In this document: positions 49,913 to 63,803 of the stretch, one piece after another
How positions within the stretch are numbered: position 1 is the stretch's first letter
Layout of the letters: every line of letters begins with the position of its first letter
NCBI RefSeq assembly: GCF_014931605.1
Contig: NZ_CP053382.1
Span: forward strand, 3,100,001 to 3,164,000
Reading direction: 5' to 3'
Origin: Halomonas sp. MCCC 1A13316
GTDB lineage: Bacteria > Pseudomonadota > Gammaproteobacteria > Pseudomonadales > Halomonadaceae
Length of the DNA: 64,000 nt
Translations under genes and position numbers: made by a program
The notes under the pieces: generated by a model
What the model was told of the DNA's origin: nothing
Seen by the model: the letters and a program-made list of their open reading frames with translations, nothing else
The model's database searches: none

Positions 49913-51415
49913 ATGTGCCCCTTGCGTATCGTCGTCGACCGACAGGAAGACTGGCGGCCCTACTATCCCTCCGAAGACCTGATCAGCGCCGACGACTTCC
50001 TGGCACTTGACCGGCGTCATCGCAGCGCAGCCGACCAGGACCGCAGCACCCATGTGATCAATCTATGCGGCGAACTCGACTATCTTGGCACCGGATACTA
50101 CGTTTCGCTGCTCGCCCAGGCACGCGGTCAGCGTGTCCTGCCCAGCGTCGAAACTCTCAACGAGCTGTCGCGCAAGACGCTTGTCGACCTGCAGCTGGAT
50201 ACTTTGTCGCCGCTGCTCGGCGAGCTGGCGCGCCAGGGTCTTCTTGCCGGAGACAGCGTGACCCTGCGCGTGCTGTTCGGTGAATGCCGCGAACCAGAGC
50301 TGGCCCGGCTCGCTCGCAAGCTCTTCGAGCGCCTGCCCTGCCCCTTGCTCGAGGCCCGCCTGGTGCGACGCCATGACCTGTGGCGGCTAGCCAGGCTCAA
50401 GCCGATCCACCTTCGCGACCTGAACGCCGACGAACAGGATCTGTTTGCCTCTGCGCTCAACCGGCACTCGCGCAAGGTATGGCGCACGCCCAAGGCGCGC
50501 CGTCGCTATCGCTTCGATCTGGCCATCCTGATCGATCCCAGGGAAGCCTTGCCGCCGAGCAACCGCAGTGCGCTCAAGGCCTTCATTCGTGCCGGACGCA
50601 AACTGGGGATCGACGTTTCGCTGATCACTCGGCGCGATGCGGGGCGGCTCGCCGAGTTCGACGGACTCTTCATCCGCGAGACGACGGCGCTGGATCACCA
50701 CACATACCGCATGGCCAGACTCGCAGAGCATGAGGGTCTGGTGGTGATCGACTCCCCGCGGGACATCCTGCGTTGTACCAACAAGGTCTATCTTCACGCG
50801 CTATTGCGTGCCCGCGGCGTGCCTGCACCGGAAGGCGTACTGTTGAAGCGGCGAGACCGGCGCCCACTGGCCGAACGAGTTGCCGGGCTGAGCTTTCCCA
50901 TGGTGCTGAAGATACCCGACGGCGCCTTCTCCCGCGGTATCGTCAAGATTGGTTCGCTCGAACAGCTTGAGCACGAAACCCGACGCTTGTTCGAAGATTC
51001 CGCCCTGCTGCTGCTGCAGGAGTGGCTGCCGACCGAATATGACTGGCGTATCGGCGTCCTGGATGGCCAAGTGCTGTTCGCCAGTCGCTACTACATGGCA
51101 CGCGGCCACTGGCAGATATACGACCACTCGGGCGCCAGGGTCAAGAGTGGCGGTTTCACTACTCATGATCCGGCCGAGGTGCCCCCCGCCGTGATCAGGG
51201 CGGCATTGAAGGCTACCCGCCTAATCGGCGATGGACTCTACGGCGTCGACCTCAAGCAGGCCGGTGAACGTGTGGTGGTCATCGAGGTGAACGACAACCC
51301 CAACGTGGACGCCGGCATCGAGGATACCGTTCTGGGGCGCCAGCTCTACGAACGCATCATGGGTGTCTTTTTGTCCCGTATGGAGGCCCATGTCTCGGCC
51401 AGGTCGGCAGAATGA
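49913..51415 (+). CDS. RimK-type ATP-grasp ligase with N-terminal RLAN domain
   Basis: A 500-residue protein. The N-terminal about 130 residues (RIVVDRQEDWRPYYPSEDLI, NLCGELDYLGTGYYVSLLAQARGQ) match the RLAN domain; a linker region follows, then a RimK-like ATP-grasp domain at about 260-490 (VPAPEGVLLKRR, FPMVLKIPDGAFSRGIVKI, VVIEVNDNPNVDAGIEDTVLG with the metal-binding Glu-Asn-Asp-Asn). ATP-grasp enzymes of this type form peptide bonds, often adding glutamate. Substrate unknown. It ends 368 nt before the exopolysaccharide operon. Confidence 0.88.
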   Translation: MCPLRIVVDRQEDWRPYYPSEDLISADDFLALDRRHRSAADQDRSTHVINLCGELDYLGTGYYVSLLAQARGQRVLPSVETLNELSRKTLVDLQLDTLSPLLGELARQGLLAGDSVTLRVLFGECREPELARLARKLFERLPCPLLEARLVRRHDLWRLARLKPIHLRDLNADEQDLFASALNRHSRKVWRTPKARRRYRFDLAILIDPREALPPSNRSALKAFIRAGRKLGIDVSLITRRDAGRLAEFDGLFIRETTALDHHTYRMARLAEHEGLVVIDSPRDILRCTNKVYLHALLRARGVPAPEGVLLKRRDRRPLAERVAGLSFPMVLKIPDGAFSRGIVKIGSLEQLEHETRRLFEDSALLLLQEWLPTEYDWRIGVLDGQVLFASRYYMARGHWQIYDHSGARVKSGGFTTHDPAEVPPAVIRAALKATRLIGDGLYGVDLKQAGERVVVIEVNDNPNVDAGIEDTVLGRQLYERIMGVFLSRMEAHVSARSAE

Positions 51416-51571: not shown

Positions 51572-51591
51572 GCGACAGAATTACCTGTCGC
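51572..51591. promoter_or_regulatory. Palindromic activator-site candidate GCGACAG-N6-CTGTCGC
   Basis: Perfect 7-bp arms (51572-51578, 51585-51591) with a 6-nt spacer. The centre lies about 97 nt upstream of the start expected from the sigma-54 element, the usual distance of an enhancer-binding-protein site. A related imperfect site lies about 75 nt further upstream. Confidence 0.5.
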
Positions 51592-51650
51592 TCCATAACA
51601 AAATTTCTTTATGTAAACACAACCCTCTGATTGTACACGGAATTTTCTAG

Positions 51651-51667
51651 TTGGCGCGAAAGTTGCG
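51651..51667 (+). promoter_or_regulatory. Sigma-54 type promoter element of the exopolysaccharide operon
   Basis: TTGGCGCGAAAGTTGCG agrees with the RpoN pattern TTGGCACGN4TTGCW at all but two positions. GG (51653-51654) and GC (51665-51666) have exactly 10 nt between them. Transcription would begin near 51678, leaving a leader of about 115 nt before the ugd start. Confidence 0.6.
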
Positions 51668-51792
51668 TACCGTTTGGAACGCTAACTAAACGAACCCGAC
51701 CCTGCACGCCATCGCCCCGTCGGTCACCTCCGGCATCGGTGAGATGGCGTCGATTGGATAACAGGGCGAAACTGCAAGGAGCAATGACGATC

Positions 51793-53139
51793 ATGAGGAT
51801 TACTATCTTCGGTTCTGGCTATGTGGGATTGGTAACCGGCGCCTGTCTGGCCGATGTCGGTCATCAGGTCATGTGTGTGGACATCGATGCCGAAAAGGTG
51901 GCTCGTCTGAACAATGGAGAGGTCCCCATCTACGAGCCCGGCCTGGAGGAGCTGATCAGCAGCAACAAGGCCGCTGGGCGTATCGAGTTCACCACTGATG
52001 CCGCCAAGGCAGTAGAGTTCGGCCTGCTCCAGTTCATTGCCGTGGGTACCCCATCCGACGAGGATGGCAGCGCCGATCTCAAGTACGTGTTGAAGGTGGC
52101 GGAAACCATCGGCCAGCACATGAACGATTACAAGGTCGTCGTCGACAAGTCGACCGTGCCCGTTGGCACCGCCAGCAAGGTGGAGCGCACCGTCGCCGCA
52201 GAACTGGAGAAGCGCGGTGTGAACCTGGAGTTCGACGTCTGCTCCAACCCCGAATTCCTCAAGGAAGGCGCAGCCATCGAGGACTTTTCGCGCGGCTCGC
52301 GCATCGTCGTCGGGACCGACTCGGAGCGCGTCAAGAAAGCCATGCTGGAGTGCTACGGCCCCTATAACCGTCAGCGCGACAAGATGATGTTCATGGGCGT
52401 GCGCAGCGCAGAACTGACCAAATACGCCGCCAACGCCATGCTGGCGACCAAGATCAGCTTCATCAACGAGGTCGCCAACCTCGCTGAGCGTCTCGGCGCC
52501 GATGTCGAGGAGGTGCGTCACGGCATCGGCTCCGACCCTCGGATCGGCTATAGCTTCATCTATCCGGGCTGTGGCTACGGCGGCTCCTGCTTCCCCAAGG
52601 ACGTCAAAGCGCTGGCTCATACTGCCGAAGAAATCGGCCATCCCGCCGAGATGATCAAGGCCGTTGAGCGGGTGAATGCCCGGCAGAAGAACAAGCTGTT
52701 CGAGAAGCTGTGCCAGGCTTTCGACGGTCAATTAGCCGGCAAGACCATCGCTGTCTGGGGGCTGGCATTCAAGCCCAACACCGATGACATGCGCGAAGCG
52801 CCCAGCCGCGCCCTGATGGAAGCCCTGTGGGATGCCGGCGCACGGGTCCAGGCCTTCGACCCCGAGGCGGCCGCAGAGTGTCAGCGTATCTACGGAGAGC
52901 GCAGCGATCTGGTGCTGGCCGAGCGTCGTGACGACGCACTCGAGGGCGCTCACGCGCTGGTCATCTGCACCGAATGGAAGGCCTTTCGCACCATTGACTT
53001 CAAGGAACTGCGCGAGAAGCTCGTGGAGCCGGTGCTGGTAGACGGCCGCAACCTGTTCCAGCCCGATACCGTCAAGGCTGCGGGGCTCGCCTACTATGGC
53101 ATCGGCCGCGGTGACTCCGTGCGGCCCGTACTGGCCTGA
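51793..53139 (+). CDS. ugd: UDP-glucose 6-dehydrogenase
   Basis: A 448-residue enzyme that oxidises UDP-glucose to UDP-glucuronate with two NAD+. The Rossmann loop GSGYVG is at 7-12, [12 protein letters not shown] is the UGDH signature, and the catalytic Cys266 lies in [12 protein letters not shown]. The GDP-mannose dehydrogenase AlgD has a different signature at the first site (GTPSKKNGDLDL as I recall it) and FAFGGSCLPKD, so this is not AlgD. The start at 51793 (MRITIF) matches homologues; ATG 51784 is too close to the AAGGAG site. It is first in the operon, 9 nt before the synthase gene, so it supplies the sugar donor. Confidence 0.93.
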
Positions 53140-53148
53140 GGAGTTCCG

Positions 53149-55077
53149 ATGTCCGCTACTCCCCCAGACCCCTCCACCGCCAGCTGGACGACGGAGATCA
53201 CCACTTTCCTGTTCGGCTTGGCGCTGATGGTGGTAATTCTCAGCAAACTGCCCTCGGAGGTATTCTCGCCGGGGTCGGAGAGCTTCATCTTCGTCATCGG
53301 CTGGATTGCCATCTGGCGCTACTCCTGGTGGGCAGTTCAGGCCGTGCGTTCGGTGTGGTACAACCGCCGCATCTTCCCGCAGATGCGGGCCGAGGCGGAC
53401 GCGATCGGCGAAGAGGAGAAACCGCCTGAGCTGTTCGTGCTGTGCACCTCGTTCCGGATCGAGGCGAGGGTGAACTATCAGGTCTATGACGCCCTGATTC
53501 GCGAGGCTCGCGCCTATGGTGTACCGACCACCGTCTTCGCCTCCGTCTCGGACCGTACCGACGTGGATGTCATTACCCATGTGATGGACGATCACGGCTG
53601 GCCGAAAAACGTCGAAGTTCGCTACATGTTCCAGAAGGGGGACGGCAAGCGTTCGGCAATGGCTGAGGTGTTGAGGGCGATCTCCCGGCGTCTGCCGGCG
53701 CCGGGCTCGCTGCTGGTATCGATGGATGGCGATATCAGGCTCGAGCCGGGTACGCTGTCGCGTTCGCTCAGCTTCTTCCAGTCTCAGGATGACCTGGGCG
53801 CACTAACCACCAACAACCGCGCCGAAGTGACTGGCAACGATGCCACTCGCGAGTGGTACGACCTGCGCTATGCACAGCGTCACCTGATGATGAGTTCGAT
53901 GTCACTTTCACGGCGCCTATTGGTACTGACCGGCCGCTACAGCGTCTTTCGTGCCGACCTGGCGACACAGCCGGACTTCATCGAACTGATCGAGAGCGAC
54001 CACGTCGAACATTGGCGCTTTGGCAATTTCAAGTTCCTTTCGGGCGACGATAAATCCTCGTGGTACTGGTTGCTGAAGAACGGCTGGCGAATGCTCTATA
54101 TTCCCGATGTCTTCGTTACCGGGTTCGAGGAACTGCCTGACCGTAAGCGCTTCTTCGCCTCCACCACCGATCTGATGCGTCGCTGGTACGGCAACATGTT
54201 GCGTACTAGCAACCGGGCGATCGCCCTGGGACCGCGTCCGATGGGGATGTTTACCTGGTGGAGCCTGGTGGATCAGCGCCTTTCCATGTGGACGACCCTG
54301 GTTGGGCCTACGGTTGTCGTCCTGGTCTCGCTGTTCGTGCGGCCGTCGTTCTTGTTCGCCTACTTGGTATGGATCCTCTTTACTCGCAGCATCGCCACTT
54401 CGATTCTGGCTTGGCAGCGAGGACGTTTCAGCTTGCTGTGGATTCCACTGATTTACTACAACCAAGTTTGGGGAGCGATGCTGAAGACTTATGTCAGCTT
54501 CCGCTTCAATCGCCAGAAGTGGTCGCGTCAGGGAATCTCCGCGGGGGAGCCGGACGATCCCGTTGCGGCCAAAAGGCAGCGCCGCATGGGTCACGTGCTG
54601 CACGGCTTCGCCTATGGTGTGCTGTTGCTGATCCTTGTCATCTCGACCGGTGTGATGGCGCCGCCCGACCGGATGACACTGAGCATAGCCCGCGATCAGA
54701 CTTGGGATCGCAGCCAGGATCCCGAGCAGCTCGATCGCTGGCTCAGTGCCGCCCTTGTCGACAAGATCGGCGACTCGGTTCAACTGCCTCCGGGCTATTT
54801 CCGACTCGAAGGGGAGCTGCTCGAGACCTTGCAGCAGAACACGCTGCCGAGCGAGAAGCGAATCCGCGGTAATCATGGCACTACCGTCCTGGCGATTTCC
54901 CCCGCCTTGGCAAAATTGATGCAAGGCCCGAATGGCAACGCTATCCAAGATGCCGTCGAATGCACCGTGGATGCGAACTGCCAGCTAGCCTTTGACGAAC
55001 ATAACCTGACCCTTGTCAACGTACGACTCAGGGTCGAGCCCAATGCCCCGAACGATATGGCAGCGACTCAACCCTGA
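53149..55077 (+). CDS. Alg8-like family 2 glycosyltransferase (polysaccharide synthase) with C-terminal extension
   Basis: A 642-residue inner-membrane processive glycosyltransferase. Two N-terminal helices precede the GT2 domain; Asp193 and Asp195 form DGD (SMDGDIRLEPG), Asp300 lies in GDDKSSW and Arg344-Arg-Trp in RRWYGNM is the acceptor-binding QxxRW equivalent. From LTGRYSVFRADLATQPDF to YYNQVWGAMLKTYVSFR it follows Alg8 closely. Alg8 has 494 residues; here an extra helix (about 485-508) and a 135-residue periplasmic tail follow. The tail (VQLPPGYFRLEGELL, then NLTLVNVRLRVEPN) resembles one or two turns of a beta-helix. GGAG-type site before the ATG. Confidence 0.9.
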   Translation: MSATPPDPSTASWTTEITTFLFGLALMVVILSKLPSEVFSPGSESFIFVIGWIAIWRYSWWAVQAVRSVWYNRRIFPQMRAEADAIGEEEKPPELFVLCTSFRIEARVNYQVYDALIREARAYGVPTTVFASVSDRTDVDVITHVMDDHGWPKNVEVRYMFQKGDGKRSAMAEVLRAISRRLPAPGSLLVSMDGDIRLEPGTLSRSLSFFQSQDDLGALTTNNRAEVTGNDATREWYDLRYAQRHLMMSSMSLSRRLLVLTGRYSVFRADLATQPDFIELIESDHVEHWRFGNFKFLSGDDKSSWYWLLKNGWRMLYIPDVFVTGFEELPDRKRFFASTTDLMRRWYGNMLRTSNRAIALGPRPMGMFTWWSLVDQRLSMWTTLVGPTVVVLVSLFVRPSFLFAYLVWILFTRSIATSILAWQRGRFSLLWIPLIYYNQVWGAMLKTYVSFRFNRQKWSRQGISAGEPDDPVAAKRQRRMGHVLHGFAYGVLLLILVISTGVMAPPDRMTLSIARDQTWDRSQDPEQLDRWLSAALVDKIGDSVQLPPGYFRLEGELLETLQQNTLPSEKRIRGNHGTTVLAISPALAKLMQGPNGNAIQDAVECTVDANCQLAFDEHNLTLVNVRLRVEPNAPNDMAATQP

Positions 55078-55096
55078 CGCAAGGAGCGACCAACGG

Positions 55097-56677
55097 ATGG
55101 CTGACAATTTATTTAACGACGATAAACGGCACGAGCCTACCCTGGGAGGAAACCGATCGAGCAGGCAGACCGCCTCTCACGACGAGCCGCGGGATGCCGA
55201 CCAGGACAGCGTGCGCCTGACCCAGGGGGATCGGCTTCAGCATGAGCGCCGGGATGAACGTGGCTACATTCGCGTTACCCTGCCGTTTCGTGTCGATCTC
55301 GCCGACAGCGACACCGAGCTGAGCGGTAATGATGTCTCGCTGGGAGGGTTTTCCGCCCGGAGTCCACGCGGCTTCGAGCCGGGCGAGAGGATATCCGCCT
55401 CGCTCTTGATGATGGCCGGTGCCACCGAGCTGATCGTGCCACTCCAAGCGGAATGCCTGCGCTCCGTCCCCGCGGAGCAGGGCAGCGGTTACGATATTAG
55501 CTTCGAGATCACCGAAATCGAGCCGCAGCATCGAGAGCTGCTGCGCCAGATCATTCGCAGCGCGCTGAGTGGCCGCACGCCCAACGTAGAGGGCCTGATC
55601 GGCGGCGAAGACCCCCAGACACCGCGCAAGCGTCAGGCGGCCCGCCCTACCCCTCCGTCCCGCCCACCCAAGCCGATGGGACGCTACATCCTGTTGTTCG
55701 CCGCCATCGGCGTGCTGGCGCTGGTCGCCGCAGCCACCGCCTATCGCAACTTCATGCTGATCGAACCCAGCTTCGCCGCGGTGACGGCCCCGCGCATCGA
55801 CATCCGGGCGCCAGGACCCGGCCTGCTCGGCGACCATGATCTCACGGCTGGCGATCGCGTCGAGCGCGACCAGAAACTGACCAGCGTGGTCAACAGCGAC
55901 TTGGAATCCGACCTGATCCTGGCCGAGGCAGCGCTCGACTACAACAACCGCCTGATCGAGAACCTTCGCCAACACCTCGAAGGCGGCATGCAGGAGGTCA
56001 GCCTGGCCAACTCGGCGCAGCCGGCCAGTGGCGACACCATGACCTTCGAGTCGGTCTCGCCGGAAATAGCCCAGGCGCGCATCGGCCAGTTCGAGACGGT
56101 TCGCGACTACGAGAGCTCACGTATTGCGGCTCTGGAGGCACGCAAATCGAACAACGACATCTACAGTCCCTGCGATTGCCTGGTGGCCTGGGCCCTGAGC
56201 AGCGCCGACGGCGTATACATCAATGAGAGCGAGCGGATCATGACCCTGATCCGCACCGATGAGGACGACGTGCTGGTCGAAGCGCTGGTCCACATGGATG
56301 ACGTGAGCCGCATCGAACCCAACCAGCAGGCCTACGTGACAGTGGGCAACTCGAACAAACCCATTCGCGCACGTGTGCGCAACGTCGCCCTCGATATCGA
56401 GCGCCAGCCCCGCGCCGGCTTCCCCAGTTGGGTGCGCCAGCAGCAGAACGTCGCCAGCGTGCTGCTGGTGCCGGAGGAACCATTGCCCGCGGACACCGTT
56501 GGCCAACCGGTGGACGTGCGCTTTACCGAAGCGCCGCTGCTGGGCACCATTTCCGAACATGTCTGGCAGGGCGTGAGTTCGGTGATCCAGCTCGGTGATG
56601 ACATCTATCGCACCGCCATTCAGGAGGGGGATACTGCTTCCCAGGAGGTCGAGAATGAAGTTACCGATGACAGCTGA
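55097..56677 (+). CDS. Alg44-like PilZ / HlyD-type copolymerase subunit
   Basis: A 526-residue inner-membrane protein. After a disordered N-terminus, a PilZ domain (about 51-155) carries both c-di-GMP motifs: Arg51-x3-Arg55 in ERRDERGYI and Asp79-x-Ser81-x2-Gly84 in NDVSLGG. One membrane helix (about 197-215) follows, then a periplasmic HlyD-like barrel with a coiled region (about 285-400) and a pair Cys-Asp-Cys in IYSPCDCLVAW. This is the plan of Alg44, the c-di-GMP receptor that activates Alg8. Polymer synthesis here is therefore probably c-di-GMP-dependent. The start 55097 has AAGGAG 10 nt upstream. Confidence 0.9.
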   Translation: MADNLFNDDKRHEPTLGGNRSSRQTASHDEPRDADQDSVRLTQGDRLQHERRDERGYIRVTLPFRVDLADSDTELSGNDVSLGGFSARSPRGFEPGERISASLLMMAGATELIVPLQAECLRSVPAEQGSGYDISFEITEIEPQHRELLRQIIRSALSGRTPNVEGLIGGEDPQTPRKRQAARPTPPSRPPKPMGRYILLFAAIGVLALVAAATAYRNFMLIEPSFAAVTAPRIDIRAPGPGLLGDHDLTAGDRVERDQKLTSVVNSDLESDLILAEAALDYNNRLIENLRQHLEGGMQEVSLANSAQPASGDTMTFESVSPEIAQARIGQFETVRDYESSRIAALEARKSNNDIYSPCDCLVAWALSSADGVYINESERIMTLIRTDEDDVLVEALVHMDDVSRIEPNQQAYVTVGNSNKPIRARVRNVALDIERQPRAGFPSWVRQQQNVASVLLVPEEPLPADTVGQPVDVRFTEAPLLGTISEHVWQGVSSVIQLGDDIYRTAIQEGDTASQEVENEVTDDS

Positions 56678-57545
56678 CAGCTCGCGCCGGGCTCTCTGCC
56701 GCTGTAGCGGCATCGCGCTGATTGCGCTGGCGTCGCTTGGCGCCAGCCCCCTGTTCGCCGACCTGGCTGAGGATGCCAACGTCGGCATTCCCCAGGTATC
56801 GGCCTGTTCCCAGCGCTACACGGCAGCCGAAGCGCCCCAGCCGGCCTCCGGTGTGAGGGCTCACGAGGCGATTCGCGAAGGTTTCAACACCACCCAACAC
56901 TGGGGCACCAAGGAGAACGTGGAGCGTCTCGGGGCCGGTTTTACCGGGTTGGGAACGCCTGGGCTACGGGTACACTACCCCGCCGGCACCTCCTCGCCTG
57001 GCGAAGAGCCCCGTGGGGGGGCAGGGTTCTACAGCGACCCGCCGTCGCTGCGCGGCGCCGAACGAGCCTGCCTCAGCTACAAGATCCGGTTTCCGAGTGA
57101 CTTCGATTTCGTCAAAGGGGGCAAGCTGCCAGGGCTCTACGGTGGTGATGCCCCTTCGGGTGGCGAAGAAGTCGATGGCAACAATGGCTTTTCCATGCGC
57201 CTGATGTGGCGAGAAGGGGGCAAGGGGGAGCTATACCCTTATGTGGTCGGCTTCGAGGGTGATTCGGTGGGGCGCGGTGCATGGAGCTTCCCGGTCGGTC
57301 AGTGGGTGACGGTGGAACAAGAGCTCATCCTCAACGACCCGGGCCACGAGAACGGTGTCGCCCGGCTGTGGATCGATGGACGTCCGGTGCTGGAGCAACA
57401 GAACGTCACCTACCGCACCACCCCCGAGCTCACCATCGACGGCCTAATGTTCTCTACCTTCTTCGGCGGCACCGGTGGAGAATGGCGAACCCCTCGCGAC
57501 CAATATGTGGACTTCGCCGACTTCCGCTTCTACGCACAACCCTGA
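56655..57545 (+). CDS. PL14-like polysaccharide lyase, copy A
   Basis: A 296-residue secreted protein; signal peptide 1-35 (ending LFA-DL). The core is a beta-jelly-roll-type lyase domain: Lys154-GG-Lys157 in DFVKGGKLPGLYGGDAPSGGEE, Ser180-x-Arg182 in GFSMRLMWR, and Tyr194-x-Tyr196 in ELYPYVV. The Arg-to-Tyr spacing equals that which I recall for the PL14 lyase vAL-1 (Ser219, Arg221, Tyr233, Tyr235), a glucuronate-directed enzyme. TFFGGTGGEWRTPRDQYVDFADF ends it. The start has AGGAGGT upstream and overlaps the Alg44-like gene by 23 nt. Cleavage of nascent polymer in the periplasm is likely. Confidence 0.8.
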   Translation: MKLPMTADSSRRALCRCSGIALIALASLGASPLFADLAEDANVGIPQVSACSQRYTAAEAPQPASGVRAHEAIREGFNTTQHWGTKENVERLGAGFTGLGTPGLRVHYPAGTSSPGEEPRGGAGFYSDPPSLRGAERACLSYKIRFPSDFDFVKGGKLPGLYGGDAPSGGEEVDGNNGFSMRLMWREGGKGELYPYVVGFEGDSVGRGAWSFPVGQWVTVEQELILNDPGHENGVARLWIDGRPVLEQQNVTYRTTPELTIDGLMFSTFFGGTGGEWRTPRDQYVDFADFRFYAQP

Positions 57546-57577
57546 CTTTTCCTCGAGCGCACATGGAGTGACGCCGA

Positions 57578-58822
57578 ATGCCATTTCCACCATTGAAAGG
57601 ACGCCTCTCGCATCCTTCACTTCTTGCGCTGCTGCTCGTCTTCACGACGAGTACGGTAAGCGCGCAAGAGACCATGCCCCGTGACGAACGAAAGGAACTG
57701 GATCTCTCCGAATACCGGGTCACCGACACCGACGCCAGCTATTTCGACGTCGAGGCGCGCATGGAACTGCTGCGAAACACCGACAACTCCATCCTGCTGC
57801 AGGAAATGGAGATCCTTACCTCGTCAGCGCCGAGCTGCCAGCAGCAACTCAGCTACAAGCCCATTACCACGCGTGGCGGCATCCCGGGATATTATCCCAG
57901 CCCCGAGGAGTGGGAGCTGGCCACCGAGCCGCTGTTTGCCTTCGAGGACAGCGTTTCGAAGCTCGCCGGTGCCTTCGTCGCCAGCCAAGATACCTACTAC
58001 GCGGAGTGCCTGGTGCGCTATTTGCACCACTGGGCGGAAGAGAAAGCCCTGACCACCTTCGTCTTCGACTCCAACGATCCCCAGGCCTGGTTCGCCTCGG
58101 AATCGATGATGTTTGCCGCCGCCATGGCATATTCCATCGTGCGCCCCTACGTGGAGGACATGGAAGAGGAGCGCGCCGAGGTCGAGAAATGGCTGCACGG
58201 CCTCGCTCTGCAGCACTCGGCTTTTCCCGGCCAGCCGGAGGAGAGCTGCTGCAACAACCACTTCTATCGCCGCGCGCTCTATGCCAGCATGATCGGGATT
58301 CTGGTCGAAGACGATGAGCTGTTCCGCTTCGGTGTCAGTGCTATCTATTCCGCCCTGCACGACCTGACCGAGAACGGTGCCCTGCCGCTGGAAGTGAGTC
58401 GAGGCCGGCGCGCCACGCACTACCAGAACTATGGCATCAACTACCTGATCACCAACATGCAGGTCATCCAGCGCCAGGGCTATGACATCTTTGAGCTGGA
58501 GTACGAGGGCAACACCATCCACGAGGCCGTGGATTTTCTTTTCGAAATCCTCGATGACCCCGCTGCGCTGGGTGACTACGCCCCGCGCGAGCAGTACACG
58601 GGCTTCCTCAAGGATCCTCAGTATTTTACCTGGATGGACATCTACCTCTCCCACTATGACGATCCGCGCGTAGCCAATTTCGTGCAGCGGGTCCGACCGC
58701 TCTATAACCGAAGTGCCGGTGGCTTCATCTCCCTCTACTTCATGGATCCGGAAGCCCAACAGCACGTCTACCTTGATGAAAAACGGCGTCGCACCGAAGC
58801 ATTCCGCGGTCTGGGCAATTGA
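57578..58822 (+). CDS. AlgL-like (PL5, alginate-lyase fold) polysaccharide lyase, copy A
   Basis: A 414-residue periplasmic protein with a signal peptide (about 1-29, ending VSA-QE). The catalytic block of AlgL-type lyases is present: CCNNHFYRRA with His228, and RGRRATHYQNYG with Arg277/278 and Tyr282; AlgL has CNNHSYW and RALAYHNYAL. It is longer than AlgL (about 370). PL5 members include enzymes with polyglucuronate activity (Smlt1473, from memory), so the substrate need not be mannuronate. It is cotranscribed with the PL14-like gene 32 nt upstream. As in alginate systems, it may remove misdirected periplasmic polymer. Confidence 0.82.
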   Translation: MPFPPLKGRLSHPSLLALLLVFTTSTVSAQETMPRDERKELDLSEYRVTDTDASYFDVEARMELLRNTDNSILLQEMEILTSSAPSCQQQLSYKPITTRGGIPGYYPSPEEWELATEPLFAFEDSVSKLAGAFVASQDTYYAECLVRYLHHWAEEKALTTFVFDSNDPQAWFASESMMFAAAMAYSIVRPYVEDMEEERAEVEKWLHGLALQHSAFPGQPEESCCNNHFYRRALYASMIGILVEDDELFRFGVSAIYSALHDLTENGALPLEVSRGRRATHYQNYGINYLITNMQVIQRQGYDIFELEYEGNTIHEAVDFLFEILDDPAALGDYAPREQYTGFLKDPQYFTWMDIYLSHYDDPRVANFVQRVRPLYNRSAGGFISLYFMDPEAQQHVYLDEKRRRTEAFRGLGN

Positions 58823-58860
58823 ATACGTGTTCAGACAACCACACACATAGAGGGGAACAC

Positions 58861-61491
58861 ATGGAACGCATGAAAGTTAGGACACGACTCATCCCCTCGC
58901 TGCGACTGGCGGCGGCTATAGGAATTACGGCCGGTCTCGTCGGCTGCGCAGCGACCGGCGGCTCTGCTCCCGGCGAGCATGCCCCCCCCGTGCCCGAAGC
59001 CTACCAGGCCTGGTTCGGTGGCGTCATCGAAGCCGACGTCAGTGGCCAGGACTGGGACGTCATCAACTATAGCAGGCGGCTGATCGAGGAAGAGCGCTAC
59101 GAGGAAGCCATGGAGCACCTCGACGCTCTAATGGCACGCAATGTCATGCCGGCGTTCTACGAGACGGGGAAGCTCTACGAGCGCGGCATCGGCGTCGAAG
59201 CGGATCCTGCAAAAGCGGCCGAGCTCTACGGCAAGGCGCTTGACCTTCAGTCGTCCATCCATGGCCCGGCCTCGCTGAGTCTGGGGCGCCTCTATCAGGA
59301 AGGACGCGGCGTCAAGCGGAACGACGTGCTGGCCTACCACCTGCTCCTGCAAGCCATGGAGGAGGGAGTCGAGCAGGACGCCGAGATCCGTCTGGCCGGG
59401 ATGCTGGCCGAGGGCACCGAGAATATCGAGGCTGATCCAGAAATGGCCAAGCGCCTACTGGAGCGCGCCGCCAACCGTGGCGATGCCAAGGCACTTGAAG
59501 CACTGGCCATCGCTCACTCTCCGGGTGGCTGGCTGAAAGAGAACCCCGCCCAGGCCATGGACTACGCTCAGCGCTTCGCCGAGGCTCTCGAAGCAAAGGC
59601 AAGCCAAGGGGACACCGGCGCCATGCTGCAACTGGCGTCGATGTACTCGGCCGAGGGTCTGCTCGGCGACCAGCCAGAGCAGCGCGTGCGCTGGCTGCGC
59701 CAGGCCGCCGAGGCCGGTGACATCGACGCCTTGGCCCGTGCCGGCCGCGAGATGGTCGACGCCGGCGATGCCGCCGGAGGTTTGGAGCTACTCAAAGAAG
59801 CCGCCAATGAAGGCCACGTCGACGCCATGACGTACTACGGCGAGGCGCTACTGGAAGGTAGCGTTGGCCAACCGCAGCCAGCGCTCGCCGAGCGCTGGCT
59901 GCAAGCGGCGATCGATGCGGGCTCGGTGGATGCCCAGGTAATCCTCGGCCGTGCACTGGTCGAAGGCCAGGGTGGGCTCAATGACCTGCCCCGCGGCATG
60001 AACCTGCTCGAACAGGCCGCCAAACAGGATCATGCGTTGGCGCTGGCCCAGTTAGGCTCACTCTATCTCGACGACGAGCGGGTCGCCGGCCAACCTTACA
60101 TTGCCGTCGACTATCTCGAGCGCAGTCATGCTCTCGGCCACCCTTGGGCGACCCAGCAATTGGGGGCCGCCTACCTCGAGGGCCGTGGCGTGGCACCGGA
60201 TCCCGTCAAGGCCGAGGAGCTGTTGCGCCAAGCTGCCGAAAATGGGCAATCGGGAGCGATGCGGCTTCTGGGGGAAGCCTACCTGGATGAAGAGAATCCC
60301 AACTTCCAGCCCAGCCGAGGCGAGGAGCTCCTGCGCCAAGCTGCACAAGCCGGCGATACTACGGCCATGGCGCAGCTCGGCAAGGCCTATCTGGAAGGCC
60401 CGCTCGACGATCCCGCCGAGGGTATAGATATGCTGACCCGAGCCGCCGAAGCCGGCGATGGCTATGCCATGGTGGCCTTGGGCCGCGCCTATCGTGAGGG
60501 CAACGGGGTGGAGCGCAATCTGGACACAGCTAGCCGCTGGCTGACCCGTGCCCAGCAGGCCGGGCACGAATCCGCCGACGACGCCATGACCTACCTTCAG
60601 CGCGATTTGGGCGCCCAAGGCAACATGGAAGCCCTAGTTGCCGCTGCAGAGGATGGTCACCCTGGCGCCATGGCCGATCTCGGACGCGCCTTTCTCAACG
60701 GAAATGGTATCCAGCAGGACCAAGGAAGAGCGGAATATTGGCTGGGACAAGCGCACCAGGCGGGCCATGCCGGCGCTGCCGCCAGTCTCGGTCGCATGTA
60801 CCTCGATCGTGGCGCCACCGAGCGAGGCATCGAGTACCTCGAAGCCGCCGTGTCCCGGGGACATGCCGGGGCTCGCGCCGATCTGGGCGAAGCCTATCTG
60901 GCCGGAGACGGCGTCGAACGTGACGCAGAGCGCGGCATGGAGCTGCTTAGGGCCGCCGCTCAAGCAGGTAACGCACAAGCCGCCTTCCATCTGGGCGAAG
61001 CCTACCAGCACGGCAACGGCGTCGAACCGGACGCCGAGCAGGCCGAACGCTGGTATCGACAGGCCAGCGATGCCGGCGCCATCCACGCCCGCGTGGGGCT
61101 GGGGCTCGCCCTGATGCGTGGCGAAGGTGCCATCGCCCAGAATGTCGAGGAGGGCCATACATTACTGCTCGAGGCCGCAGAACAGGGTCATGCTGGAGCC
61201 CAGGCGACTCTCGGCCGTGAATACCTGCGCGGCGAAAACATCGAGCGCGATCCCGCGCGGGGCGCCGATTACCTCTACCAAGCGGCCAGCCAAGGCCATC
61301 GCAGTGCTCGCCTCTCCCTGGCCCAGGCCTATCTATCGGCCCGCGGTCTGGAACACGCCAACCGGGAGCAGGCCCTACTGTGGCTGGACGAGGTGTTCGA
61401 CAGCGATAGCCAGATCGCTCTCGAAACTCTACGTGAGCTGCTCTCCGACGAAGCGGCCATCGCCGCTGCCGCTAGCGGCAGCGCGGAGTAA
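58861..61491 (+). CDS. Sel1-repeat lipoprotein, AlgK-like
   Basis: An 876-residue lipoprotein; signal peptide ends in the lipobox LVGC at about 29. The rest is a chain of Sel1/TPR-like repeats of about 36 residues (A-x-LG-x-YLEG-x-GV-x-x-D and relatives; by eye around twenty), forming a superhelix. AlgK, the alginate-system scaffold, has 475 residues and fewer repeats, so this one is nearly twice as long. It should connect the synthase complex to an outer-membrane pore, but no pore gene is in the operon. The start 58861 has GAGGGGA 5 nt upstream; an in-frame ATG at 58819 overlaps the lyase end. Confidence 0.85.
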   Translation: MERMKVRTRLIPSLRLAAAIGITAGLVGCAATGGSAPGEHAPPVPEAYQAWFGGVIEADVSGQDWDVINYSRRLIEEERYEEAMEHLDALMARNVMPAFYETGKLYERGIGVEADPAKAAELYGKALDLQSSIHGPASLSLGRLYQEGRGVKRNDVLAYHLLLQAMEEGVEQDAEIRLAGMLAEGTENIEADPEMAKRLLERAANRGDAKALEALAIAHSPGGWLKENPAQAMDYAQRFAEALEAKASQGDTGAMLQLASMYSAEGLLGDQPEQRVRWLRQAAEAGDIDALARAGREMVDAGDAAGGLELLKEAANEGHVDAMTYYGEALLEGSVGQPQPALAERWLQAAIDAGSVDAQVILGRALVEGQGGLNDLPRGMNLLEQAAKQDHALALAQLGSLYLDDERVAGQPYIAVDYLERSHALGHPWATQQLGAAYLEGRGVAPDPVKAEELLRQAAENGQSGAMRLLGEAYLDEENPNFQPSRGEELLRQAAQAGDTTAMAQLGKAYLEGPLDDPAEGIDMLTRAAEAGDGYAMVALGRAYREGNGVERNLDTASRWLTRAQQAGHESADDAMTYLQRDLGAQGNMEALVAAAEDGHPGAMADLGRAFLNGNGIQQDQGRAEYWLGQAHQAGHAGAAASLGRMYLDRGATERGIEYLEAAVSRGHAGARADLGEAYLAGDGVERDAERGMELLRAAAQAGNAQAAFHLGEAYQHGNGVEPDAEQAERWYRQASDAGAIHARVGLGLALMRGEGAIAQNVEEGHTLLLEAAEQGHAGAQATLGREYLRGENIERDPARGADYLYQAASQGHRSARLSLAQAYLSARGLEHANREQALLWLDEVFDSDSQIALETLRELLSDEAAIAAAASGSAE

Positions 61492-61503
61492 GTCACTGAA
61501 GGC

Positions 61504-61534
61504 AGCGGCTCCCCCATTTGGTGGGGGAGCCGCT
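61504..61534 (+). repeat. Strong intercistronic hairpin after the Sel1 gene
   Basis: A perfect 13-bp stem (61504-61516 with 61522-61534, TTTGG loop) lies 12 nt past the Sel1 stop and 32 nt before the next start. There is no U-run, so it may be an mRNA stabiliser or a partial terminator that reduces expression of the second lyase pair. Confidence 0.65.
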
Positions 61535-61566
61535 CTCGCACGCCCGTCTACTGAGAGGAGGCACGG

Positions 61567-62460
61567 ATGCCTCAATCCGCATGCTGGCTGAGGCACGCCG
61601 CCCTGCTCGTCGGCCTGCTGCCCATCGCCTGGGGGCCTCCCGCCAGCGCCGACACGTCCGCCAGTGACCATTCTCGCACGCCACGCCTGGCCTCATGCTC
61701 CGAGCGCTACTCCCTGTTGGCCGCCTTGCGGCCGCGACACGTCCTGCAGACAGCCAAGGAAGCGATTCGCGAGGACTTCGCATCGACCCGTGACTGGGGC
61801 ACCGAGTCCAACGCCGAACTGCTCGGCGCGCTGACCAGCGGGTTGCCGGAGCCTGCCTTGCGTGCCCATTATCCTCGAAACAGCTCCTCTCCCAGCGATG
61901 CCGACCAGCAGGTTGTCCCCCGCGGCGGCCTCGGTTTCTACACCAAGGAAAAAAACTTGCAAGACACCGACCGGGCATGTCTACACTATCGGTTACGTTT
62001 CGAAGCAAACTTTGACTTTGTTAAAGGAGGTAAGCTTCCCGGCCTGTACGGCGGTGACGCTCCCAGCGGCGGCGAGGAAGTGACGGGAGAGAACGGCTTC
62101 TCGCTGCGCCTGATGTGGCGCAAGGAGGGCCAAGGCGAACTCTACGCCTATACGGTCGGCCACGAAGGCGACTCCCTGGGCCGCGGCAATTGGTACTTTC
62201 CTACTGGCCGCTGGGTCACTGTCGAGCAGGAGGTGGTTCTCAACACGCCCGGCGAGGAGAACGGTGTCGTACGCGTATGGATCGACGGCTGGCCCGTTCT
62301 CGAGCAGCGCAATCTCGTCTATCGCACCACGCCGGATGTGAGCATCGATGGAATAATGTTCTCAACTTTCTTCGGCGGCACCGGCGAAGAGTGGCGTACG
62401 CCGCACGACCAACACGCCGACTTCTCCGCCTTTCGCCTTTACGCACCCGAGCCAAGGTAG
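61567..62460 (+). CDS. PL14-like polysaccharide lyase, copy B
   Basis: A 297-residue secreted protein, paralogue of 56655-57545 (more than half identical by eye in the core). Signal peptide to about 28 (PASA-DT). The catalytic pattern is kept: Lys153 and Lys156 in FVKGGKLPGLYGGDAP, Ser179-x-Arg181 in GFSLRLMWR, and Tyr193-x-Tyr195 in ELYAYTV. AGGAGG lies 6 nt before the start. The N-terminal part (EAIREDFASTRDWGTESNAELLG) is similar in both copies, so the whole gene was duplicated, not just the domain. Confidence 0.8.
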   Translation: MPQSACWLRHAALLVGLLPIAWGPPASADTSASDHSRTPRLASCSERYSLLAALRPRHVLQTAKEAIREDFASTRDWGTESNAELLGALTSGLPEPALRAHYPRNSSSPSDADQQVVPRGGLGFYTKEKNLQDTDRACLHYRLRFEANFDFVKGGKLPGLYGGDAPSGGEEVTGENGFSLRLMWRKEGQGELYAYTVGHEGDSLGRGNWYFPTGRWVTVEQEVVLNTPGEENGVVRVWIDGWPVLEQRNLVYRTTPDVSIDGIMFSTFFGGTGEEWRTPHDQHADFSAFRLYAPEPR

Positions 62461-62509
62461 CGGCTTGATCGTCAGCCGCTGCCGCATCGAAGCAGGAGGC
62501 TGACTTACA

Positions 62510-63763
62510 ATGAGCTACCAAGGAAAGCACGCTCGCCAACGTACCGTTCCCTCATGGATCGCAGGTTCGCTGATCGCGACTCTGCTGGCGACCAGCGCCA
62601 CGACCCAGGCCCTGACGCTGGAGGAGCGCCGGGAACTGGATCTCTCCGGTTACACGGTGCGCGACCCGGACGCATCCTATTTCGACATAGAGGAGCGCAT
62701 GGCGCTGCTGCAGGAAACGAACAACAGCCTGTTGATGCAGCGTCGGGAGGAGCTTGCTAATTACGCCCCGAGCTGCCGCCAGCGGCTGGATATCCCCACC
62801 ATTACCGAGAAAATGCGCATCCCCGGCTTCTACCCAACCCCCGATGACTGGAAGCTAGCCACCGAACCCCTGTTCAAATTCGAGGATACCGTGTCGGAAC
62901 TTGCCGGCACCTATGTTGCCAGCGGCAACGAATATTACGCCGAATGCCTGGTGCAGTTCCTCGACAAGTGGGCCCAAGATGATGCCCTACTGGACTTCTA
63001 TTATCACTGGAAGGAGCCCCAGGCCTGGTTCTCGCTGGAGTCGATGATCTTTGCTGCCGGCATGGCTTACTCCGTGGTCCGGCCGAATGTCGATGGCCTG
63101 GGTGAGGAAAAAGGCCGGGTAGAGGAGTGGCTCAACGAGCTGGCCAGTGTGCATTTGGAGATCGAAGGAGCCGAAAGCAGCTGCTGCAACAACCATTTCT
63201 ATCGCCGCGCTCTCTATGCCTCCATGATCGGCGTTCTGACAGAAGACGACGACATGTTCCGCTTCGGTGTCAGTGCCATCTATTCCGCCCTTCACGACAT
63301 GACCGAGGAGGGGGCCTTTCCGATGGAGATGGAGCGCGGCCGTCGCGCCACCCATTATCAGAACTATGCTCTGCTCTACCTTATCCCGATCATGGAGATC
63401 ACGCATCGCCAAGGCTACGAGGTCTATGAAATGGAGGTTAATGGGAGGTCCATGCACGATGCGGTAGATTTCGCCATGGATATTCTCGAGGATCCTTCCG
63501 CGCTCGGCGATCTGGCTCCACGTGATCAGTACACGGGCTTTCTCAAGGACGACCAATACTTCGCCTGGATGGAGATGTATCGCGCTCGCTTCGAAGAATC
63601 GCGCTTCGACGATATCCTGGCGCCCATGCGGCCCATCTACAACCGCGGCGCCGGTGGCTACGCCACCTTGTATTTCATGGATACCGACGTGCAAAGCCAC
63701 TTGGTGATCGACGACGAGGACAGACGCGAGACGCAGGCATTCGAAGGGCTGGCGCGTAACTGA
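62510..63763 (+). CDS. AlgL-like (PL5) polysaccharide lyase, copy B
   Basis: A 417-residue secreted protein, paralogue of 57578-58822. Signal peptide to about 35 (TQA-LT). The block CCNNHFYRRALYASMIG with His229 and the segment RGRRATHYQNYALLY are almost unchanged between the copies, while flanking regions have diverged (for example TENGALPLEV against TEEGAFPMEM). Both copies keep the motif residues, so both are probably active. AGGAGG is 10 nt upstream. Last gene of the operon; an intrinsic terminator follows 12 nt after the stop. Confidence 0.82.
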   Translation: MSYQGKHARQRTVPSWIAGSLIATLLATSATTQALTLEERRELDLSGYTVRDPDASYFDIEERMALLQETNNSLLMQRREELANYAPSCRQRLDIPTITEKMRIPGFYPTPDDWKLATEPLFKFEDTVSELAGTYVASGNEYYAECLVQFLDKWAQDDALLDFYYHWKEPQAWFSLESMIFAAGMAYSVVRPNVDGLGEEKGRVEEWLNELASVHLEIEGAESSCCNNHFYRRALYASMIGVLTEDDDMFRFGVSAIYSALHDMTEEGAFPMEMERGRRATHYQNYALLYLIPIMEITHRQGYEVYEMEVNGRSMHDAVDFAMDILEDPSALGDLAPRDQYTGFLKDDQYFAWMEMYRARFEESRFDDILAPMRPIYNRGAGGYATLYFMDTDVQSHLVIDDEDRRETQAFEGLARN

Positions 63764-63775
63764 GCTGCATGCGAC

Positions 63776-63803
63776 AAGGCCGGCATCTGGTGCCGGCCTT
63801 TTT
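63776..63803 (+). terminator. Intrinsic terminator of the exopolysaccharide operon
   Basis: A perfect 10-bp stem (63776-63785 with 63791-63800, TCTGG loop) is followed by TTT; with the stem end this gives five T. It separates the operon from the convergent purA gene. Confidence 0.85.

Follow-up and report, generated by a model that had tools for sequence, protein, structure and literature searches.

What does an operon produce that has the synthase machinery of alginate and, as its first gene, a dehydrogenase of another type? The question is raised by eight tightly packed genes on the forward strand (51784-63763, located from open reading frame positions and Pfam models) of a 64,000-nucleotide stretch of Halomonas sp. 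MCCC 1A13316, here called the window (G000:C1:3100001-3164000, in a genome of one contig with 4,490,931 bases). The original prediction, made from the sequence alone, was of a cyclic di-GMP (c-di-GMP)-controlled operon of the Alg8/Alg44 type that makes a glucuronate polymer and not alginate. The Alg8-like synthase, the activator with PilZ and HlyD domains, and the polysaccharide lyases of families 14 and 5 (PL14 and PL5) that it named are all found by Pfam on the forward strand; its starting position of 51572 lies about 210 bases ahead of the likely ugd start at 51784. The operon is real and conserved, and is a variation on the alginate-type machine. It is probably a c-di-GMP-gated, synthase-dependent system that uses UDP-glucuronate as donor, with glucuronan as the most likely product.

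The donor enzyme

The first gene was expected to encode a UDP-glucose dehydrogenase (Ugd) and not the GDP-mannose dehydrogenase (AlgD) of the alginate system, and comparison with solved structures bears this out. In a search of PDB sequences the protein scores 556 bits to the UDP-glucose dehydrogenase 2Y0E, which we take to be BceC, and 218 bits to the GDP-mannose dehydrogenase 1MFZ. Locus L102, a complete alginate operon, supplied the yardstick for AlgD: its dehydrogenase reaches 823 bits with 1MFZ and 216 bits with 2Y0E. That operon was verified by AlgK (750 bits, cut-off 700), the AlgE family PF13372 (317.9 bits), AlgG (871.7 bits, cut-off 700), the AlgX family and AlgL (659.2 bits, cut-off 429). 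It alone was checked family by family; for the other loci the label alginate-type comes from the dehydrogenase, the order of genes or the position in the synthase tree.

In a comparison of 33 dehydrogenases selected from the loci, the window Ugd groups with Ugds and apart from AlgD-type enzymes, and is 34% identical to the AlgD of L102. Seven other Halomonadaceae dehydrogenases are 71-98% identical to the window Ugd and 31-33% to L102 AlgD. For the 20 dehydrogenases of other Alg8-like loci, Pirellulales locus L050 included, the values are 42-81% to L102 AlgD and 30-34% to the window Ugd; with the reference AlgD, all 21 are AlgD-type. The motif around the catalytic cysteine is GGSCFPKD in the window Ugd and in the second Ugd of the genome, and GGSCLPKD in the 21 AlgD-type rows. 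The window enzyme is closer to the solved UDP-glucose dehydrogenases and has the catalytic cysteine, as is expected of a UDP-glucose 6-dehydrogenase. By these comparisons the donor enzyme of the operon is Ugd, of the UDP-glucose type, in place of AlgD.

Four members of the dehydrogenase superfamily are present in the host genome and none is AlgD-type; the AlgD of L102 as query gives only Ugd-level matches there (229.8 and 220.9 bits). Besides the window Ugd, these are a second Ugd, 64% identical to it and located beside a Wzz-like gene, a dehydrogenase resembling the UDP-N-acetyl-sugar type, and, next to galU, a degenerate Ugd-like protein (L054, near 2262386-2262664 of the contig) without the catalytic cysteine motif. 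The same query, at E <= 1e-80, finds an AlgD-type enzyme in none of 250 Halomonadaceae genomes, and the 20 genomes itemised in that search all also occur in the synthase search of the family. As a control with 10 genomes, the query recovered 8 of 8 alginate-type genomes at E <= 6.6e-162, with matches below the AlgD class at 1.9e-68 or weaker.

The synthase

The synthase, a glycosyltransferase of family 2 (GT2), does not cluster with mannuronate synthases. In a tree of 74 sequences and 500 columns, from which L001, L002, L024, L035, L117, L120, L125, L051-L093, L094, L096 and L097 were omitted as partial or duplicate, the Halomonadaceae synthases form a clade of their own (support 100/100), and the alginate-type synthases, including that of L102 and alphaproteobacterial ones, form a separate clade (100/100). 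The nearest synthases to the Halomonadaceae clade are those of L041, from Hydrocarboniphaga, and L113. More distant are group B (L114, L116, L121, L122, L050) and group C (L115, L124, L126), the latter with L123. Among the fetched loci the nearest named relative of the window synthase is that of Billgrantia bachuensis (94% identical); identity to the L102 synthase is 43%, and to the synthases of 13 alginate-type loci of the order (L100-L112) 36-43%.

Residues D193, D195, D300, D301, K302, R345 and W346 are present in all 82 family synthases. Positions 161, 223 and 259 are F, N and V in 82/82 family synthases, compared with R, E and T in 30/30 synthases of the alginate clade. Among 119 database relatives, a set that overlaps the family set, N223 and V259 are found in all and F161 in 116 (Y in two, a gap in one). 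The C-terminal extension is long in 68 of the 82 family synthases and short in 14, and is also found in relatives P0080, P0109, P0112 and P0117. Located after the last membrane segment, it is conserved, with LPxG and TTL stretches and, in the rows inspected, a pair of cysteines; by eye it resembles the start of a beta-helix.

Annotation is of little help with this protein. NCBIfam naming is uninformative, since the window synthase matches no model and the L102 Alg8 falls below every cut-off, and a synthase profile gave no matches to PDB sequences. Among the best 120 of 1177 database matches, some relatives are called Alg8 or mannuronan synthase and most of those with names are plain glycosyltransferases; the same 120 include relatives beyond the family from Caenispirillum salinarum (63%) and a Geminicoccaceae bacterium (52%).

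Conservation in Halomonadaceae and beyond

A profile built from 18 synthases finds the synthase in 80 of 250 Halomonadaceae genomes, from 11 of 24 genera, at 82 places. The company of ugd with alg8/alg44-like and PL14 genes holds across these genomes. In a census of 81 of the 82 places (the window omitted, the upstream RLAN neighbour ignored), Ugd is found at 78 loci and AlgD at none, the PilZ protein, PL14 and PL5 at 80 each, and a Sel1-repeat protein at 78. The exact order ugd-GT-Alg44-PL14-PL5-Sel1 recurs at 65 loci and in 12 further loci the sole departure is that PL14, PL5 or Sel1 is split or has additional copies, so the arrangement is not due to chance. All but one of the 30 named Halomonadaceae loci have ugd (29; the one without it, L024, is a 3.6-kb fragment), and five have a second PL14-PL5 pair. 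Two genomes of one Halomonadaceae genus, G817 and G825, have two synthase loci each (L146, L183, L147, L163). Plasmid records gave 14 matches, all below 60% identity.

At wider ranks, the synthase profile matches 35 of the 390 genomes sampled from the order and 10 of the 369 from the class, and a single-protein search matches 24 of 398 from the phylum, alginate-type synthases being included in each count. All five alphaproteobacterial genomes with alginate-clade synthases that were examined (L037, L042, L044, L045, L046) have an AlgD-type enzyme, 44-48% identical, and in four of the five none lies beside the synthase. The Hydrocarboniphaga effusa locus (L041:7949-12182) has a PilZ-HlyD protein, an Alg8-like synthase and PL14, with no dehydrogenase adjoining; the AlgD query gave only a Ugd-level match in that genome. 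L113 has an HlyD-type protein with the synthase, in a genome without an AlgD-type enzyme. A ugd gene near L113 was rejected as part of the locus, as about 4 kb and other genes intervene and it resembles a housekeeping copy. L123 has a PL14 gene, and its genome (79% complete) gave no matches to the AlgD query.

The synthases of L124 (9013-11688) and L126 (8935-11571) are Alg8-like proteins of about 880-890 residues with an unrecognised C-terminal half, and these two loci and L115 have an adjoining protein with a PilZ-like start; the three are possibly another non-alginate group. The rhizobial loci L044 and L045 (Rhizobium nepotum 39/7 and Rhizobium sp. RM) have PL5 and Sel1 genes and a synthase without an adjoining dehydrogenase, with an AlgX-type gene in L044. 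They are of interest because both glucuronan producers in PMC10180729 are rhizobia. They were set aside as candidate genes for acetylated glucuronan, since their genomes carry an AlgD-type enzyme, which makes alginate the likelier product.

Lyases and substrate

The lyases had been put forward as evidence for glucuronate, and this argument is not supported. The PL14 enzyme was held to keep the Ser-x-Arg and Tyr-x-Tyr pattern of the glucuronate-directed lyase vAL-1. The pattern is present: across 86 aligned rows the K, R and both Y of the K, S-x-R and Y-x-Y positions are invariant, and the S is found in 84. In the PDB search, PL14 scores 93.8 bits to 5GMT, 47.3 to 6KCW and 32 to vAL-1, so that vAL-1, the expected closest match for a glucuronate lyase of its type, is not the closest. 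The table in PMC8145301 lists 5GMT as an alginate lyase from Aplysia. In the alignment 5GMT also has the K, S-x-R and Y-x-Y residues, and the motif was rejected as a marker of glucuronate because the better-matching alginate lyase has identical residues.

The PL5 enzyme similarly scores 140.6 bits to the alginate lyase A1-III of Sphingomonas, 98 to the 7FHU series, which we take to be Smlt1473, and 50.3 to the alginate lyase 4OZV. Smlt1473 is termed specific for polyglucuronate in a passage of PMC4765187, and is described as active on several polysaccharides in one of PMC4444821. The catalytic region expected of PL5 is present, with NNH in 87/87 and the R..HY region in 86/87 aligned rows. Both window PL5 enzymes fall below the cut-offs of every NCBIfam alginate-lyase model that they match, while the AlgL of L102 passes one. 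A PL5 family search of the host genome found the two operon copies and no others. From their sequences the lyases appear to fit a 4-linked uronate polymer, yet they do not distinguish glucuronate from mannuronate.

Regulation, scaffold and export

The protein that follows the synthase has the PilZ plus HlyD architecture of an Alg44-type copolymerase, the same as in L102. Its PilZ RxxxR pair (R83-R87) is invariant in 81 aligned rows, and in the [D/N]xSxxG motif the first position is D in 80 rows and N in one, the S is present in 80 and the first G in 79. Conservation of this signature across the 81 rows supports predicted control of the operon by c-di-GMP through the Alg44-like PilZ domain.

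The proposed AlgK-like scaffold is upheld as a Sel1-repeat lipoprotein (72 of the 77 long homologues carry a lipobox-like motif) and not as a specific relative of AlgK. With the AlgK model it reaches 91.9 bits (cut-off 700; L102 AlgK 750), and the MotX and ExoR models score higher; on these scores its likeness to AlgK is that of Sel1 repeats in general. The operon combines a processive GT2 synthase, a PilZ partner and a putative periplasmic TPR/Sel1 scaffold, as is expected of synthase-dependent, c-di-GMP-gated exopolysaccharide systems.

The statement that the operon has no algG, algX/I/J/F, algA or AlgE-type porin also holds: none is found by Pfam among the eight genes, algA, algG, algI and algF not having been searched for outside the operon. 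Nor was a complete alginate gene set found elsewhere in the host genome, which has no AlgD-type enzyme, no match to the AlgE family PF13372 at E <= 1 (317.9 bits in L102) and none to the AlgX/AlgJ family PF16822 at E <= 0.01 (matched in L102, L029 and L044).

The polymer

The donor is predicted to be UDP-glucuronate because the dehydrogenase is of the Ugd type, Ugd is found at 78/81 loci, AlgD is found in 0/250 genomes and the synthase lies outside the alginate clade. A uronate polymer built from UDP-glucuronate, the part of the predicted glucuronate polymer that stands, is well supported by these sequence comparisons; a glucuronan homopolymer is what we infer beyond it. From the gene content and its conservation, the identity of Ugd, the absent AlgD-type matches, the synthase phylogeny and the conserved motifs, we infer the catalytic specificity, linkage, gating and export route as follows. 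Ugd would oxidise UDP-glucose to UDP-glucuronate, and the GT2 synthase would link glucuronate and move the chain across the inner membrane once the Alg44-like PilZ domain binds c-di-GMP. The Sel1-repeat lipoprotein may scaffold or guide passage through the periplasm, where secreted PL14 and PL5 lyases would trim or remove stray chains, the part that AlgL plays in alginate systems. Most likely the product would be beta-1,4-linked polyglucuronate (glucuronan) without acetylation or epimerisation. This reading is also favoured by the contrast at synthase positions 161, 223 and 259, the lack of AlgE and AlgX/J matches in the host genome, the PL5 scores below the alginate-lyase cut-offs and the conserved PilZ motif.

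Several observations weigh against this reading. The best solved matches of both lyases are alginate-cleaving enzymes, and an outer-membrane exporter was not found among the operon genes or by the AlgE search of the host genome. L041 and L113 are joined to the Halomonadaceae synthases with moderate support only (71.7/89), and share N223 and V259 with them but have A and P at position 161. The group C synthases (L115, L124, L126) have R161, E223 and T259, and the L124 and L126 genomes gave only Ugd-level matches and no AlgD-type enzyme; residues 161 and 223 were accordingly rejected as a clean marker of the donor, as alginate-type residues occur in group C without an AlgD-type enzyme in the tested genomes. 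Three Halomonadaceae loci have no ugd. In L197 the contig breaks off immediately ahead of the synthase gene. L189 and L205, however, hold about 2.5 kb upstream of the synthase without ugd and so counter a strict link to Ugd. L205 stops just past the synthase, which hides its other genes, and its synthase is among the more divergent (56% identical); the genome with L189 (G761) has one Ugd-level match elsewhere and no AlgD-type match.

The chief rival to polyglucuronate is a mixed glucuronate polymer, in which the synthase alternates UDP-glucuronate with UDP-glucose or UDP-N-acetylglucosamine to give a chain like hyaluronan or cellobiuronate. Single GT2 synthases with two donors do exist, hyaluronan synthase, which uses Ugd, being an example, and this too counts against a homopolymer; in the cell UDP-glucose is the immediate precursor, and the PL5 enzyme Smlt1473 attacks several polysaccharides (PMC4444821). 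On the other side, no second donor enzyme is found in the window operon, the other loci not having been searched for one. The PL5 and PL14 families are best known for action on runs of 4-linked uronates, and the nearest verified synthase, 43% identical, serves an alginate operon, the product of which has a mannuronate homopolymer as its backbone. A mixed chain is rated unlikely. Another uronate polymer, for example of galacturonate after epimerisation of the UDP-sugar or with a different linkage, is improbable. The sequence fixes neither sugar nor linkage, and the second Ugd beside the Wzz-like gene indicates other UDP-uronate chemistry in the cell, but there is no epimerase among the operon genes and, of the two dehydrogenase types sought, only Ugd adjoins the synthase in the family. 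An alginate (polymannuronate) system fed with GDP-mannuronate from elsewhere is very improbable and largely refuted, as labels such as "Alginate biosynthesis protein Alg8" or "mannuronan synthase" given to some relatives, the alginate lyases nearest in PDB and the 43% identity with the L102 synthase, from a complete alginate operon, are set against the missing AlgD-type enzyme in the host genome and the 250 family genomes, Ugd at 78/81 loci, the place of the synthase outside the alginate clade and the lack of an AlgE or AlgX/J match in the host genome.

For the preferred reading, polyglucuronate from UDP-glucuronate, it seems on balance that the operon provides the biosynthetic genes so far missing for bacterial glucuronan, present in about one third of the sampled Halomonadaceae genomes, with synthase relatives in Caenispirillum and Geminicoccaceae. 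Its tie to the alginate system would be the exchange of one donor, GDP-mannuronate or UDP-glucuronate, for the other in a machine that is alginate-like in other respects, whether one split off from the other or both had a common ancestor. If so, it would be the first gene set for a bacterial polyglucuronate, and database names that steer such strains to alginate would be corrected. The two related synthase clades would then allow study of how Alg8-type enzymes choose between GDP-mannuronate and UDP-glucuronate, and biofilm research on halophiles would gain a defined, testable matrix polymer.

Operon layout and neighbouring genes

Table 1. Features of the operon in window coordinates.
Feature	Position	Strand	Basis
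ugd, UDP-glucose 6-dehydrogenase (predicted UDP-glucose to UDP-glucuronate)	51784..53139	+	Pfam UDPG_MGDP_dh N/central/C
GT2 processive synthase, Alg8 type; DGD, GDDK and RW motifs	53149..55077	+	PF13641
Synthase C-terminal extension, residues ~517-642, probably periplasmic	54697..55074	+	Alignment of family synthases
Alg44-like protein, PilZ (~55247-55558) and HlyD-type periplasmic part	~55097..56677	+	PF07238, PF13437
PL14 lyase, copy 1; signal-like N-terminal segment (by eye)	~56655..57545	+	PF21294, 211.6 bits
PL5 lyase, copy 1; signal-like N-terminal segment (by eye)	57578..58822	+	PF05426
Sel1-repeat lipoprotein, ~876 residues, lipobox LVGC; putative AlgK-like scaffold role	~58861..61491	+	PF08238, 232 bits
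PL14 lyase, copy 2	61567..62460	+	PF21294, 207.4 bits; 61.6% identical to copy 1
PL5 lyase, copy 2	62510..63763	+	PF05426, 127.2 bits; 57.6% identical to copy 1
Intrinsic-terminator-like hairpin closing the operon	63776..63800	+	11-pair stem, then T-rich tail TTTCCTTCTC

The hairpin that closes the operon has the longest stem among 11 terminator-like sites in the region (mean of 7.8 in shuffled sequence), and the first gene downstream of the operon is on the opposite strand. A strong, GC-rich hairpin, without a clear T tail by eye, is also found within 61492-61566, in the gap from the Sel1 gene to PL14 copy 2, and may be a remnant of an older end of the operon that predates the PL14-PL5 duplication. 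Directly upstream of the operon is a gene for an RLAN/ATP-grasp protein (49913-51412). Of the 30 named Halomonadaceae loci, 16 have this protein too, the Vreelandella, Onishia and Litchfieldella ones not among them; the protein is probably a mere neighbour.

Comparison with known systems

The predicted Halomonas product, a beta-1,4-glucuronate homopolymer, resembles the glucuronan of Sinorhizobium meliloti M5N1CS and Peteryoungia rosettiformans; the rhizobial polymer is acetylated, whereas the Halomonas operon holds no acetylation gene. A passage of PMC10180729 reports that S. meliloti produces a glucuronan lyase and states, in 2023, that the genes for glucuronan biosynthesis were unknown. No account of the operon as a glucuronan system was found in titles and abstract openings, a scope that leaves outside most subscription papers and all bioRxiv preprints. 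Halomonas smyrnensis carries the operon (L048), and Alg8 and alginate lyase predictions are mentioned for this species, without further analysis in the part of PMC4523562 concerned.

The PL14 lyases share PF21294 and the K, S-x-R and Y-x-Y residues with vAL-1, the Aplysia enzyme 5GMT and the Chitinophaga enzyme 6KCW, but are located in a biosynthetic operon. PF05426, NNH and R..HY are common to the PL5 lyases and to A1-III, AlgL and Smlt1473, which are only distant matches. A clearance role for AlgL in alginate systems is given in the title of PMC8829089. The "atypical" alginate operons of Bundalovic-Torma et al. (2020, PMC7112194) are likewise alginate-like and without export or modification genes; in the main text of that paper neither Halomonas nor a word beginning with "glucuron-" occurs, and the passages concerned do not raise a change of donor.

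The closest comparison is with the alginate system itself, as represented by L102. The Alg8-type GT2 synthase with DGD, GDDK and RW motifs, the PilZ-HlyD protein, the Sel1-repeat lipoprotein, PL5 and the first place of the dehydrogenase gene are common to both. The AlgD donor enzyme and a synthase within the AlgD-linked Alg8 clade, by which an alginate system is recognised, are not those of the window operon. The Halomonas operon differs in having Ugd for AlgD, in the addition of PL14 and in having no AlgE, AlgX or AlgG, and its synthase differs in belonging to a separate clade and in carrying the extra C-terminal extension.

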